From positions 1 through 39,512 of IMG/VR virus record IMGVR_UViG_3300024520_000197: a DNA stretch of 39,512 nt; one strand, 5' to 3'. The notes under the pieces were generated by a model. It ran no database searches. It saw only the letters and a list, made by a program, of their open reading frames with translations, and had not been told where the DNA came from. Source of the stretch: a virus. Every line of letters begins with the position of its first letter. The stretch's first letter is position 1. Below, piece after piece: positions 21,701 to 33,161 of this stretch. A program made the position numbers and the translations under genes.

Positions 21701-22950
21701 TCGATCGTGTCGCCGATCGCCTGAGCGGCTCCCTTAGCAACACCCTTGAGGGCCTCGAACCCCACAGCGATCTTATCCACGACGAACTCCACGCCTCCGC
21801 GCGCTTCGATGCCGTTGCTCAGTTCGGTGATGAAGGTCTCGCCAACTTGACGGAGCCTGAGCCTCAAGGCGTTGAAGAACACCTGGAACCGCTTGAACGG
21901 GTTCGAGAGGAGTTTCTCGATCGAGCCATCCACGCGACCGAACGCTTCATTGTTCGCGTCGAGCACCTTGTTGAACTGCTCGTACTGGTTGCCCGTCAGC
22001 GCGAGGATCGGGATCAGCGCACGGATGTTGCCGAAGATCTGAGAGTAGGCAGCGGCGTTGTCCCCGAGCTTGTCGCGCAACTCGGTGATGACGGATGCGA
22101 ACCCCTCGCTCCGGATGCGGGCCACGCTCACGTCGATGTTGTATCGCTCGAGGATCGCGGACGCCTCGATGCTCGGCTTGAGCAACTGGTTGAACGCTTG
22201 ACGCAGTTGGATGACTGCCGTGTTCGTCTCGATGCCACCCTGGGTGATCGTCGCGATGGCGGCGGAAACCTCTTCAAGGGAGATCCCGAGTGTGGCCGCG
22301 ATGGGCAGCACCTGGCCGAGCGATGTCGCCAGCTCGGGGATCGTCGTCTTACCCTTGATGACCGTTTGGAATAGTACGTCAGTGATCCGAGCGGACTCTT
22401 CCACTTCGTTCCCGTACGCCTTGATGACCGAGGTCACAAGGTCGATCGTCTGCTTGATGTCAGCGAGGCCGACTGTCGCCAGTTTCGCGGACGACTCCAA
22501 GACCACCATCGCGTCTGCCGCGTCGGTGATATCAGCCGAGATGATCTGGTAGAAGCCCTTGGCCGCGATGGTCTCCGCGAACCCGAGCGCCTCGCTGAAG
22601 GAGAGGATCCGGTCCTCGACCATCTGCAACTCTTCGTCCGTTCCGCTGAAGATCGTTCCGATCTCGGCGATGGCGAGACCGAACTTCTGCGCGTCGGCGA
22701 TCGACTTGAAGATCAGCGCGGTCCCCGCCATCGTCGTAAGCATCGCAGTCCAGCGCCCTGTGAGCGACCGGACTGCGCTTGTTGTCTTCTTGAGCGACGT
22801 GCGAAGGGGCTTGAAGGACTTAGCTGCCTTCTTTGCCTTGCGGTTCGCCTCGGTAGCGAAGTTGTTCAGCAAGCGAACCGTCTTCCCCAACTCCTGAGCC
22901 ACTTGGCCCTGGATGTTGATGGTGATGGTGATCGTTTCGTTTGCTGCCAT
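18721..22950 (-). CDS. Tail tape measure protein
   Basis: A 1409-residue, mostly helical protein, the longest of the conserved tail-assembly set and placed right after the G/GT gene. Residues about 80-330 match the TP901-type tape-measure core (FGLAIAEIGTIFSGTDEELQ, ELATSLGQVLPIAATLGI, ETNTAVIQLRQAFNQLL). Residues about 773-1000 hold three degenerate repeats of roughly 75 residues. About 1150-1330 is an Ala/Gly-rich hydrophobic zone typical of the part that inserts in the host membrane, followed by the usual glycine-rich ASGGIPQR turn. Using the common estimate of about 0.15 nm per residue, the tail would be near 210 nm. An AAGGGAAG purine tract precedes the ATG. No lytic domain is visible. 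Confidence 0.92.
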   Translation of the reverse strand: MAANETITITINIQGQVAQELGKTVRLLNNFATEANRKAKKAAKSFKPLRTSLKKTTSAVRSLTGRWTAMLTTMAGTALIFKSIADAQKFGLAIAEIGTIFSGTDEELQMVEDRILSFSEALGFAETIAAKGFYQIISADITDAADAMVVLESSAKLATVGLADIKQTIDLVTSVIKAYGNEVEESARITDVLFQTVIKGKTTIPELATSLGQVLPIAATLGISLEEVSAAIATITQGGIETNTAVIQLRQAFNQLLKPSIEASAILERYNIDVSVARIRSEGFASVITELRDKLGDNAAAYSQIFGNIRALIPILALTGNQYEQFNKVLDANNEAFGRVDGSIEKLLSNPFKRFQVFFNALRLRLRQVGETFITELSNGIEARGGVEFVVDKIAVGFEALKGVAKGAAQAIGDTIDQIDAFIVSFGGIERAKELMGSLGKLVGQIGRRIVSSVVTAIQMLVQLLLRLPKIIRAVSFDFKKAINALVALQPFEQEAIDLPFPDVAFAIELDDKGFETMLADTIQSKRDKIDKLIELENVANAARIALMKDGLFTDDLASNMTFGQVERLNEFKHATAEIERTNAKLAKTEELLNALNSSAGLRDMVGPEAVFDEEFLAGVSELSKSFETANVDMEEAWNEFMNGVTLSFSERFDIVVRQIAKMGKDSLSGALKDIFRGLQADKAAEDKASELAAKVSNEFQNALSAVKITAPGGISADEENLLNDIFRIDPSRAQAIVEESLRGITGLELPQGFLFSDKGALDTYLELFVEGKEQIRDMRQEIEDTTAAQRELDKVIGGAQDKAFENSLLTKTPDEAEAFRELYKLVKAAREEALDEEDNKNSIVDIKEIIESTEKIRKLREEIVGATKADMEFRSASAGARLELFDLENAKETAEATKILKTLWVDAELARDNALKSTRLEELIEEEQLVSDMRAHVMGATEAQRQFLKATEASRAALFQLTLVGKAQEEVQMLTGLWEEAEMAKLKALREDDIAAQDPFLTRVEAMNQSIERSTAEQLADHEGLQALLAEEEKNWMAIADLVAKVRKEQSDKQGGFKNGFSAGIQDALDDFGNLGSRGTQFAEGLVAMVHDPVQQGLHAALVGREGVDAMEVFSEALRETVATTLSEQLSQSITQLVIAPIQGILTKTIGTIGEFLFGAADKAAEELGNIGTDAAALAADQALTAATSAAAVEVGILGGQAAYAYIGLDQVGLASSFAAPSIQGMDIAAFTSIIPIEGMAGAATGAVSPIISMGFAAAKAAIALEAAAIAAAAGLANGGVMGGRPGAVVQAFASGGIPQRIENITAGGRVIKDSLYRVGEGKMKEAVVPLPGGRAIPVKMLGDGARSQQSQQITIAPQIVIQITDTDPSTFRQKLSEQSGAIQQMLAQTISQGVNRGLNQSIKKAAR

Positions 22951-22953
22951 GAC

Positions 22954-23349
22954 TTACTTCCCTTCTCGTTTCAGGTCTTCGATGGCGGCCTTCTCCGCGT
23001 TGATGATCCCTATGACGTGCGAGACGCAAGCCGCTTGGTCGTAGGAACCCCCAGGGTCAGGCAAGACCCCATTCTGGAACGCCGACCACATGGTCAGAGC
23101 CCGTTGCTCCTCGAGGCCGACGATGGACGCCGGGCACCGATAGATGTATTGGTCGCCGCGCCCCTCGCAGAGTCCGCAGGGTTCCCCGTCGAGCACCTTG
23201 TTCCCGTGACACCTGGGGCATGTGATGCCGAACACCGGAGTCGGTGCTGGTACATCGCAGCCCCAGGCCGCACGTTGGAGTTCGCTGCTCTTGCAAGTGG
23301 GGCACCGTGGTACGTCTTCAGAAAAGGCAAGGTGCGCGGCGACCCTCAG
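22954..23349 (-). CDS. T extension of the G/GT chaperone, reached by -1 frameshift
   Basis: This frame has no ATG, GTG or TTG start after the G-like stop, lies in the -1 frame relative to the G-like gene, and ends 3 bases before the tape measure ATG, exactly as the T part of lambda G-T. Joined at 23349 it adds 131 residues to give a 269-residue G-T protein. In fusion numbering it has three CxxC pairs: C154/C157 (CPTC), C182/C185 (CPRCHG) and C196/C199 (CGLCEGRG), plus C169. The last two look like the DnaJ-type CxxCxGxG zinc module. G-T proteins coat the tape measure and recruit tube protein; a zinc-ribbon T domain is not what lambda has. The frame remains open up to 23469, but that upstream part overlaps the G-like gene. 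Confidence 0.8.
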   Translation of the reverse strand: MRVAAHLAFSEDVPRCPTCKSSELQRAAWGCDVPAPTPVFGITCPRCHGNKVLDGEPCGLCEGRGDQYIYRCPASIVGLEEQRALTMWSAFQNGVLPDPGGSYDQAACVSHVIGIINAEKAAIEDLKREGK

Positions 23350-23762
23350 TTTCCCACATCTTTCTCGTCCGACACCTTGCCCTGTTGGAACAGGGCAGAC
23401 ATCGCTTCGGCTCGGTGGTTGAAACTGAACATCTGGATCTGGTCGTAAGGCAGCTCGCCCTCGACCCACTCGTCCTTGAAGGGGATCGGCTGACCCTCTT
23501 CATCGACGGCGTTCTCCCAGCCCACGACGCGCTTGGCGAAGATTGAGTTCACCTTGCTCGCCTTGAACTGGAGAAGGATCGCCTGCTTGCCCTCGCCGTC
23601 GTCCGAGAACGACGACTCGAGTGCAGCGTCAATGAAATCCTCTTCCTCGATCTTCGAGAGAGGGGAGAGGAAGAGCGCAAAACGCTCTCCCTCTGCAACG
23701 TCTGATTGACCTGAAAGCACATGCTTCCAGCGTCCACGTCGGGTGAGTATTAGTTTCGGCAT
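23346..23762 (-). CDS. G-like tail assembly chaperone
   Basis: A 138-residue, acidic, soluble protein between the tube protein and tape measure genes, the conserved place of lambda gpG. It starts at ATG 23762 with a perfect AGGAGG (23771-23776) 8 bases upstream, the best ribosome binding site in the tail module, consistent with the high G:GT ratio these systems need. The sequence (FALFLSPLSKIEEEDFIDAA, ILLQFKASKVNS, GWENAVDEEGQPIPFKDEW) gives no enzyme motif. The gene ends with GTG GGA AAC TGA, so the slippery heptamer lies immediately before the stop. Identification rests mainly on position, size and frameshift architecture rather than sequence similarity. Confidence 0.8.
   Translation of the reverse strand: MPKLILTRRGRWKHVLSGQSDVAEGERFALFLSPLSKIEEEDFIDAALESSFSDDGEGKQAILLQFKASKVNSIFAKRVVGWENAVDEEGQPIPFKDEWVEGELPYDQIQMFSFNHRAEAMSALFQQGKVSDEKDVGN
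23349..23355 (-). promoter_or_regulatory. Programmed -1 frameshift slippery heptamer GGGAAAC
   Basis: Read in the G-like frame the bases split as G_GGA_AAC, an exact X_XXY_YYZ heptamer; lambda G/GT uses the closely related GGGAAAG. The TGA stop follows at once. After slippage GGA-AAC re-pair as GGG-AAA and decoding resumes with CTG AGG GTC into the T frame. A weak GCACC/GGTGC pair (23335-23331 with 23306-23302) lies downstream, but I see no strong pseudoknot by eye. Confidence 0.85.
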
Positions 23763-30758: not shown

Positions 30759-33161
30759 TCAGTCCTTGACGATGGGTCGCGTGACGCAGCGACAGTTGAT
30801 GACATCCTCGGGAGCACCAACTGGGTCGCCGGGGTGTTTCAGTTGAGAGGTATCCCTGAAGGAGTCGCCGACAGATCGGATGACTCCATCGAGGATCACG
30901 TGCGAATGGGGGCTTGCGTTGCGTACGTGGGAATCTCCAGAGGTCACCCATTGGTGCTCGGTAATTCCTTCGCGCGACATCATCTCGAACCGCGTGCCGC
31001 TGGCAGCGCGGTTTACTTCGGTGCGCGCGATCGTGCTCGCCCGAGCACTGCGCGACTTGAACACCTTCCTGAGCTCTCCCCGGATCTCGGGGAGGACTTG
31101 GCGCACATGCTCCTGGAGCGTCGCCATCGAGAAAGGTCTCTTCCTAAAGACGCGGACCAACGCATCGCGCACGTCGTGCTCGAGCGTCGTGTTGACAGCC
31201 TGGGAGAGTCGGATGCGCTGAGACTTCAGGTAGTCGAGAGCCCAGGGGTCGCTCGACGTAAGAGCGTCTGCGCCCAGCTCGACCGCGAACTCTTCACTCG
31301 CCTCGCGAAGCACGTTCGCAAGCGGACCCTTCAGCTTGTCGGCCAGCTTCGCGTTCCACTCCGCAACGTCGAGCAGCAGGATGTTGAGGAAGTTGGGGTC
31401 GTCGATGATGTTCTGCGGAGAGACGTGGACGCCAACCTTCTCGACGCTGGCAGTCCGGAAGCCTTCCGAGCCCTTCTCCGCGTAGTCCTCGACGCGCTTG
31501 ATCTGAGCTGCGTTGTAGCGGCCCAGGTAAGCGTTCGCCGCCTTCCTAACTACGCGCTCGCCGGGCTCAAGGACGTTTGCCTCGTAGCCCTTGTGGTAGG
31601 TAGGGGGGGCCTCCTCGTAGTCACTGGACGCGGTCGTATCGTCGCCCTGGTGTTCCTTGGAGGAGACCCCTTTGCCATCTGATCCGGTGGGACCGTTCGA
31701 CCCGCTCTCGCCGCCGTTCGATCCAGGGAAGTCGTCTTCCTCTTCGCCGGAACCGCTGGAGGGAGCCTCCTGCCCGTTCTCGCCCGGCCCCTCATGGTTC
31801 TTCGATCCGCGCAGGGCGTCCTCTGCGGCGACGATGTTCGGGGGCAGCCATGCGATCTTGCCGAACTCGGTCTCGACGCCGACTAGGCCAACGATCTTCG
31901 CCGACTCGTCGTACGAGAGGCCGATGTTCGCCTGGCTCATCGAGATGGCGAGTTCGTGTTTCTTCTGGCTGTCGTCCCGGAGCGCCTCGACGTGCGAGGT
32001 GTCGAACCGCGCAATAAACCCGCGCGTGCGCGAGTCCTTCATACGCAGGATGAAATCGTTGTTGATCACGTCTTCGATCGACGCAAGCAGCGCAAGGACT
32101 CCGTTGCCGTTCTGCCAGAACTGCGCGACGGCGGTCGCGTAGTTTGAGTAGGTCGCTTCCTCGAGTACGCCGAGCACCGGGAGCGGGACGCCAAGGATCG
32201 CAGCGGTCTTGTTCCGGACTGCCATGAGCAAGTCCTTGAACTCCATGTCGCGCGGGCCGAACTTCGCAGCCTCGTACTTGACCTTGCCCGAGATCACGCG
32301 CCAGCGGCCCTTGTTCTCAAGAGAGAACTCGTCGGCTGCCTGCCGCTCGGCTGCACGCTCTTCCTCTCGCGACAACTCCTCTTCGTTGATGATGTAGCCG
32401 CCAGGGTCTCCCGAGTTGGCGAGCATCGCCTCGAGGTATCTCTGCGCGCCGAACTCGAGCGCGAGGTCTCGAAGTAGAACCTCAACGTCGCCGAGTCCGC
32501 GCAGCGGGTTCGCCGGGTCGTAGTCGGCGAACTGCACAACGGCAGGCGACGGGAACCGCGTCTGGTCCTTGCTCGGGTAAACCCAGCCGGCAGGGAATCC
32601 GTTCTTCCCAGGGATCTCATCGACGGTCGATCCCTTCACCGGGATGATGAAGGCGGGCAGGTCAATCCTTCCGTCTCCATCGGGCTCGAGGGGGTGCTTC
32701 GTTCGGTCAAAGCAGAACCAGAAGTCTTCGCCGTCGATCTTCCTGTGGAGCGTCGCGGCTTCCCAGAACTTCGCCGCAGTCATGAACTGGTTCGGGCGGC
32801 GGAAGAGATTCACGATCGGGTGGTCGGTGACCTCCCTCGCGCTCGCGTCCTCTTGCGGATCGACTTCGTAGAATCGCAACTTGCAAGACCTCACCGCCGA
32901 GCTGATCGCCTTCAGCGCAACGTGGACCCAGCCAGCCTGCTCGTACGGGCGCTCGATGTTCTCGCCGCCCGCGTACCTGGCCTCGCCAGACAGGACGGTT
33001 CCCATCCAGTTTCCGTTGCCGCCAGCGGGACTTTCCCACTCAGCGACGGTACGGGCCTCGATGGAGGTCCCGTTAGTGCGGACGAAGGGCTTCGCCCGCG
33101 TGGGCCTTGGGGCGGTCTTAGCGACCATCCACTCAGGTTTTGCGGTTCGTGAGGCGATCAC
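30759..33161 (-). CDS. Portal protein fused to a MuF-type minor head domain
   Basis: 800 residues from GTG 33161 (ATG 33128 is an alternative; neither has a good Shine-Dalgarno). Residues about 60-430 are an HK97-family portal: VHVALKAISSAVRSCKLRFY, HPIVNLFRRPNQFMTAAKFW, FADYDPANPLRGLGDVEVL, GVPLPVLGVLEEATYSNY. About 450-517 is a Gly/Ser/Asp/Glu linker (GSGEEEDDFPGSNGGE). About 518-800 is a helical region ending in a Mu gpF/SPP1 gp7-type domain: SARASTIARTEVNRAASGTR, EHQWVTSGDSHVR, and a terminal ..HPGDPVGAPEDVINCRCV. MuF proteins are normally separate minor head proteins made next to portal. It is the first gene of the late operon in this window. Confidence 0.88.
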   Translation of the reverse strand: MIASRTAKPEWMVAKTAPRPTRAKPFVRTNGTSIEARTVAEWESPAGGNGNWMGTVLSGEARYAGGENIERPYEQAGWVHVALKAISSAVRSCKLRFYEVDPQEDASAREVTDHPIVNLFRRPNQFMTAAKFWEAATLHRKIDGEDFWFCFDRTKHPLEPDGDGRIDLPAFIIPVKGSTVDEIPGKNGFPAGWVYPSKDQTRFPSPAVVQFADYDPANPLRGLGDVEVLLRDLALEFGAQRYLEAMLANSGDPGGYIINEEELSREEERAAERQAADEFSLENKGRWRVISGKVKYEAAKFGPRDMEFKDLLMAVRNKTAAILGVPLPVLGVLEEATYSNYATAVAQFWQNGNGVLALLASIEDVINNDFILRMKDSRTRGFIARFDTSHVEALRDDSQKKHELAISMSQANIGLSYDESAKIVGLVGVETEFGKIAWLPPNIVAAEDALRGSKNHEGPGENGQEAPSSGSGEEEDDFPGSNGGESGSNGPTGSDGKGVSSKEHQGDDTTASSDYEEAPPTYHKGYEANVLEPGERVVRKAANAYLGRYNAAQIKRVEDYAEKGSEGFRTASVEKVGVHVSPQNIIDDPNFLNILLLDVAEWNAKLADKLKGPLANVLREASEEFAVELGADALTSSDPWALDYLKSQRIRLSQAVNTTLEHDVRDALVRVFRKRPFSMATLQEHVRQVLPEIRGELRKVFKSRSARASTIARTEVNRAASGTRFEMMSREGITEHQWVTSGDSHVRNASPHSHVILDGVIRSVGDSFRDTSQLKHPGDPVGAPEDVINCRCVTRPIVKD

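Follow-up and report, generated by a model that had tools for sequence, protein, structure and literature searches.

A predicted lambda-type G/GT frameshift adding a conserved cysteine-rich T domain to a tail assembly chaperone in uncultivated tailed phages

Between the probable tail tube gene and the tape-measure gene of a virus known from metagenomic DNA, one short reading frame ends directly after a slippery heptamer and a second frame, displaced by -1, runs on almost to the next gene. The locus raises the question of whether these frames form a G/GT pair of tail assembly chaperones like that of lambda and, if so, what sort of T domain the ribosome would add. Throughout, the window denotes the whole stretch of DNA that was analysed, 39,512 nucleotides of IMG/VR record IMGVR_UViG_3300024520_000197. 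A reading of the window made from its letters and translations, referred to below as the sequence-only reading, had proposed that a canonical -1 site joins a G-like chaperone to a zinc-ribbon T domain, and the present analysis follows that proposal.

Two frames meeting at a heptamer

The features of the locus are collected in Table 1. The junction is as first described, with the heptamer in X_XXY_YYZ phase before the stop and the downstream frame at -1. ORF0 begins behind a good Shine-Dalgarno sequence (AGGAGG) and closes with the codons GAT GTG GGA AAC TGA. Across the junction the -1 frame reads VGN/LRVAAHL... and remains open for 131 codons to a TAA (22956-22954) three bases before the tape-measure ATG at 22950, so that the predicted fusion has 138 + 131 = 269 residues. 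The claim that the extension lacks a start codon is close to correct: the T frame of the window contains no ATG, GTG or TTG between 23469 and 23235, but that claim overlooks a GTG at 23469, 40 codons upstream and deep inside ORF0. The 20 nt preceding that GTG (CCGATCCCCTTCAAGGACGA) are without a GGAG, GAGG or AGGA core, and the next T-frame start, GTG 23235, falls within the cysteine region.

Table 1. Positions of the chaperone locus and its neighbours in the window
Feature	Position	Strand	Basis
ORF0, G-like tail assembly chaperone, 138 aa + TGA	23762-23346	-	reading frame, homologous ORF0s, AF2 model
Slippery heptamer G_GGA_AAC	23355-23349	-	in X_XXY_YYZ phase; kept in most family clusters
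ORF0 stop TGA, abuts heptamer	23348-23346	-	
-1 frame extension (T-like), cysteine-rich, 131 aa + TAA	22954-23349	-	reading frame, 46-sequence alignment, AF2 model
Putative zinc-binding part of extension	23131-23304	-	invariant alignment columns
C-terminal part of extension, predicted helices, conserved GxLPxxGGxxDQ motif	22957-23130	-	alignment, AF2 model
Tape-measure protein, 1409 aa	18721-22950	-	PF10145 E 6e-32; numerous matches to tape-measure families of PHROG, E 6e-43 at best
Probable tail tube protein, 489 aa	23810-25279	-	tblastn matches (E 1e-7 at best) with proteins annotated as tail tube

A position between tube and tape-measure genes had also been claimed, and it holds, with the tape-measure gene identified by profile matches and the tube gene by weak tblastn matches. 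Further along the window, an 800-aa ORF (30759-33161) combines in one frame a match to an HK97-type portal over residues 218-409 with one to an SPP1 gp7-like minor capsid domain over residues 692-796; it is a possible portal-MuF fusion, with both domain matches below their cutoffs.

The frames also recur outside this contig. A second contig (L002, metagenome 3300024518) is 99.96% identical to the window, differing at four positions (24543, 19588, 19440 and 19404), and its bases at the frameshift region are unchanged; the two frames are therefore not an assembly slip of one contig. At the first of these positions L002 is without one T, a difference that would throw its tail tube gene out of frame and that reflects either an assembly error or a real indel in either contig.

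A family of diverged relatives and its slip sites

Conventional searches revealed little. Single-protein scans of viral contigs returned the near-identical contig as the only match, and tblastn in 50,697 phage records gave no match to ORF0 or to the window's extension. The extensions of four relatives against named phages, and of one relative against plasmids, likewise had no related tblastn match, a Bifidobacterium phage match at E 0.9 being unrelated. Relatives were instead recovered by DNA patterns. The first, combining the heptamer with cysteine motifs, gave about nine diverged relatives of the same layout. Because this pattern imposed the heptamer, a second was run that did not, consisting of part of the protein motif (WGCD and two CxxC pairs, with one glycine each). 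Together with the earlier loci it yielded at least 121 sequences in at least 67 clusters at 80% identity. An ORF0 was readable (at least 70 codons, ending 10-55 codons before WGCD) in 62 clusters, while the remaining five were cut off or unclear there and are left out of the counts. A pattern scan of genomes gave 16 matches, among which two on MAG contigs (L250 and L248) look real; two in Marinomonas (L236, L246) are host DnaJ rather than a phage T domain, and the other short matches are due to chance. In the Marinomonas DnaJ, WGCD stands ten residues before the first CxxCxG of the cysteine-rich region, a layout resembling that of the phage T domain. The cysteine-rich T domain recurs in dozens of uncultivated phage lineages and was found in no named phage searched. 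A large ORF directly follows the T stop in nearly all family clusters, and these downstream genes carry a Pfam tape-measure domain in 6 of 10 tested, one of the six lying just under its cutoff, and match PHROG tape-measure families in 7 of 8 tested.

An in-phase X_XXY_YYZ heptamer occurs within the last 12 codons of ORF0 in 47 of the 62 clusters. Counted by codon position, this amounts to 47 of 806 positions in ORF0 tails against 3 of 6,528 in the rest of ORF0, in clusters that are related to one another and in a family defined by the matches listed. The sites comprise GGGAAAC, AAAAAAC, GGGAAAG, AAAAAAA, GGGAAAA, GGGGGGC and AAAAAAG. The codon before the site was compared in the 46 clusters in which a Gly or Lys in the ORF0 tail precedes Asn, Lys or Gly. 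In all 46 its wobble base is G where a Gly codon comes next and A where a Lys codon does, through the pairs GCG/GCA, GTG/GTA, CGG/CGA and GAG/GAA. On the T-domain tree, which is poorly resolved, the Gly/Lys class changes 11 times (best tree) and at least four times on well-supported branches; the wobble base follows every change, with a sign test p of 0.125 on the four supported pairs. This covariation is a constraint at the nucleotide level, unexplained by protein sequence, and the slip site is present in the family more than by chance. The -1 frameshift of G/GT type claimed for this locus is accordingly supported by heptamer conservation and wobble covariation across the family, by the position before the tape-measure gene and by an HK97 gp13-like predicted fold.

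Sites ending in AAC are followed directly by the stop codon in 29 of 34 cases. Among the 30 sites where the stop abuts the heptamer, 21 have TGA followed by T. Where the heptamer ends in C, such a stop also fixes the first residue of T as Leu. The abutting stop may supply a ribosome pause, which is a guess. For other stimulators, no stable downstream RNA structure was found at this phage's site (z +2.5), while the family has a slight excess of it (mean z -0.64 vs -0.04 to -0.16). A Shine-Dalgarno-like sequence lies upstream of the site in 21 of 47 clusters vs 125 of 563 control windows, sequence composition not being controlled in this comparison; this is suggestive of an upstream stimulator in the family, and none occurs in the 20 nt before this phage's site.

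The canonical heptamer is absent from the other 15 clusters, which are concentrated in a few lineages; all of them nevertheless keep T at -1 relative to ORF0, with the frames meeting at much the same point. In eight of them (L130, L152, L168, L169, L179, L191, L193 and L224, here termed EGE) ORF0 ends in GAG GGG GAG TRA, where relatives have GAG GGA AAC TRA. Three read GAA AAG, where good re-pairing is possible for the A-site tRNA only, and L143/L188, L216 and L217 have no clear slip site. Absence of the heptamer with both frames conserved had been named in advance as evidence against frameshifting. It does occur in these 15 of 62 clusters, and it limits the generality of the claim rather than the claim for this phage. 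Frameshifting is the rule in the family, but in some lineages the slip may be less efficient or coupled initiation may have taken its place.

ORF0 and the cysteine-rich extension

ORF0 is recognized by position and predicted fold. The window's ORF0 matched nothing in Pfam, PHROG or NCBIfam, including any sequence profile of a known chaperone, and it is diverged even within its family: in an alignment of 39 ORF0 sequences its identity to the others is 14-25%. One relative among the 39 matches the tail assembly chaperone family phrog_344 (E 0.0055). In VIA-align, the AF2 model of ORF0 (pLDDT 82.8) comes closest to the tail assembly chaperone of HK97 (2ob9_A; Z 6.2, rmsd 4.4, 96 of 107 residues); this Z is modest in absolute terms and the next row stands at 2.8. 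The HK97 chaperone was not among the 50 rows listed by Foldseek for the same model. Position and predicted fold agree, and they support ORF0 as a G-like tail assembly chaperone.

The extension was described in the sequence-only reading as carrying three CxxC pairs. All three are present (C16-C19, C44-C47 and C58-C61), yet the description is incomplete, as C31 (in W29GCD32) and C72 (in RCP) bring the total to eight cysteines. In an alignment of 46 sequences, C16, C19, R26, W29, G30, C31, D32, C44, C47, G49, C58, C61, G63, C72 and P73 are invariant and P97, G100, G101 and Q105 nearly so; the second pattern had left columns C16, C19, R26, C72, P73, P97, G100 and Q105 free, and the first had left C31, C44 and C47 free. 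The AF2 model made from these 46 sequences has a pLDDT of 92.8, and the invariant cysteine sets would fit tetrahedral metal sites. Eight cysteines would suit two four-cysteine zinc sites, predicted as C16/C19/C31/C72 and C44/C47/C58/C61. The proposed zinc-binding T domain is therefore plausible from the conserved cysteines and the confident model, with metal binding as a prediction.

The label "DnaJ-type" fares less well. One full CxxCxGxG (C58-C61) exists, where the DnaJ cysteine-rich domain has four such repeats; the profile of that domain, PF00684, reaches 13.9 bits where its cutoff is 32.7, and no DnaJ profile rises above threshold. The profile search that had been suggested for the 131-residue extension found no curated family above cutoff in Pfam, PHROGs or NCBIfam, and the weak zinc matches below threshold were scattered. 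A fold search of the T model in PDB and BFVD had no match at E <= 0.001. Its nearest structural match by Foldseek is anti-TRAP (E 0.05), and in a second fold comparison DnaJ zinc domains and BSD2 came lower (Z 2-3, weak). With PF00684 below its cutoff and the fold matches weak, "DnaJ-type" amounts to a likeness in one or two hairpins rather than to membership. CxxCxGxG hairpins are what the domain shares with DnaJ, anti-TRAP and BSD2, while the number and order of its cysteines differ from theirs and its scores stay below the family cutoffs. It further has the additional WGCD and RCP cysteines and a helical C-terminal part, and a J-domain search of ORF0 and the extension gave no match.

Comparison with known systems sets the domain apart further. 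Lambda G/GT has the same gene order (tube, G, T, tape measure), a -1 slip on G_GGA_AAN near the G stop and an extension of similar size (138 aa, against 131 here). The lambda heptamer, however, is GGGAAAG five codons before the stop, whereas GGGAAAC abuts the stop here, and the lambda T extension has no cysteine. HK97 gp13 and gp13-14 likewise involve an annotated -1 frameshift product; ORF0 resembles gp13 in predicted fold at 6% identity, and the HK97 extension of 95 aa is without cysteine. The pre-tape-measure chaperone of Dinoroseobacter phage vB_DshS-R5C shares GGGAAAC directly before the stop and a related tape-measure protein, while its 123-aa -1 extension has no cysteine motifs, and neither do those of Me-ZS1 and SIO-2. 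In the R5C record (L252, 1562-2342) the annotated chaperone and a hypothetical protein are joined by this abutting heptamer, apparently an unannotated -1 frameshift. The g-t sites of the haloarchaeal viruses HCTV-1, -2 and -5 are among the closest known systems, likened at the level of the site. The literature searched contained no zinc or cysteine T domain, subscription papers being mostly outside its coverage. The lambda-type G/GT arrangement itself is already known; the cysteine-rich T domain is previously undescribed.

How the fusion would be made and used

A lambda-type G/GT operon, in which a -1 slip adds an eight-cysteine, probably zinc-binding T domain to the 138-aa G-like chaperone, is very probably the right explanation. 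It builds on the observed arrangement of the frames, the conservation of the slip site at the nucleotide level, the gene order and the predicted folds. Most ribosomes would stop at the TGA and release the G-like chaperone, and a small share would slip on G_GGA_AAC to give the fusion. Its added domain would probably hold two structural zinc ions, followed by helices. The published lambda model assigns binding of the tape measure to G and to the G portion of GT, and binding of the tube protein to T (PMC5009743). By analogy, G units may coat the tape-measure protein here, and a few fusion units may recruit the tail tube subunit by way of their T domain.

The T domain might instead be a separate protein, its translation either coupled to that of ORF0 or initiated internally close to the ORF0 stop. 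The EGE clusters speak for this, as in seven of the eight their GAG GGG GAG TRA tail supplies a T-frame GTG that overlaps the TGA (L168 has TAA). The EGE tail needs two changes on the T-domain tree and possibly marks a switch from frameshifting to coupled initiation. The same GAG GGG could, however, also allow a P-site slip. The stretch of the window's T frame without a start codon leaves coupling little to work with, a start with a Shine-Dalgarno-like sequence lies near the junction in only 3 of 47 heptamer-bearing clusters, and coupling would give no reason for the conservation of heptamer and wobble base. As an account of this phage it is quite unlikely. That the frame change reflects a sequencing error or a decayed gene is scarcely credible: all that favors it is that one contig contains two frames, and against it stand the same arrangement in L002 and the invariant second-frame cysteines of 62 diverged clusters, so the frame error in the assembly that had been raised as a possible objection is not borne out.

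The other disagreement concerns function. A frameshifted chaperone could use its cysteine domain to recruit a host chaperone or as a redox switch, rather than as a structural zinc domain that binds the tube. The faint likeness to DnaJ zinc domains, BSD2 and anti-TRAP invites this idea, but the matches are weak and local, no J-domain is present, and the domain is positioned like lambda T, whose published partner is the tube protein (PMC5009743). Host recruitment or redox switching is accordingly an improbable role, and the structural zinc domain of a lambda-type GT protein is preferred. A wider proposal, speculative and on balance doubtful, is that in a widespread class of uncultivated tailed phages a metal-dependent T binds its clients much as DnaJ does and hands tube subunits prone to aggregation over to the tape measure. 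The slip class would then drift freely from GGG-AAC to AAA-AAC and back, and some lineages would have exchanged frameshifting for coupled initiation.

The family matters in several ways. In many environmental phages, none of them represented among the named records searched, a conserved metal-type domain has replaced or extended the frameshift-added half of the chaperone, which is cysteine-free in lambda and HK97. Switches of site class accompanied by compensating changes at the wobble base, along with lineages that lost the heptamer, provide a natural data set on slippery-site evolution. The recruitment of tail tube subunits by T also becomes open to testing through the predicted dependence of the domain on metal.
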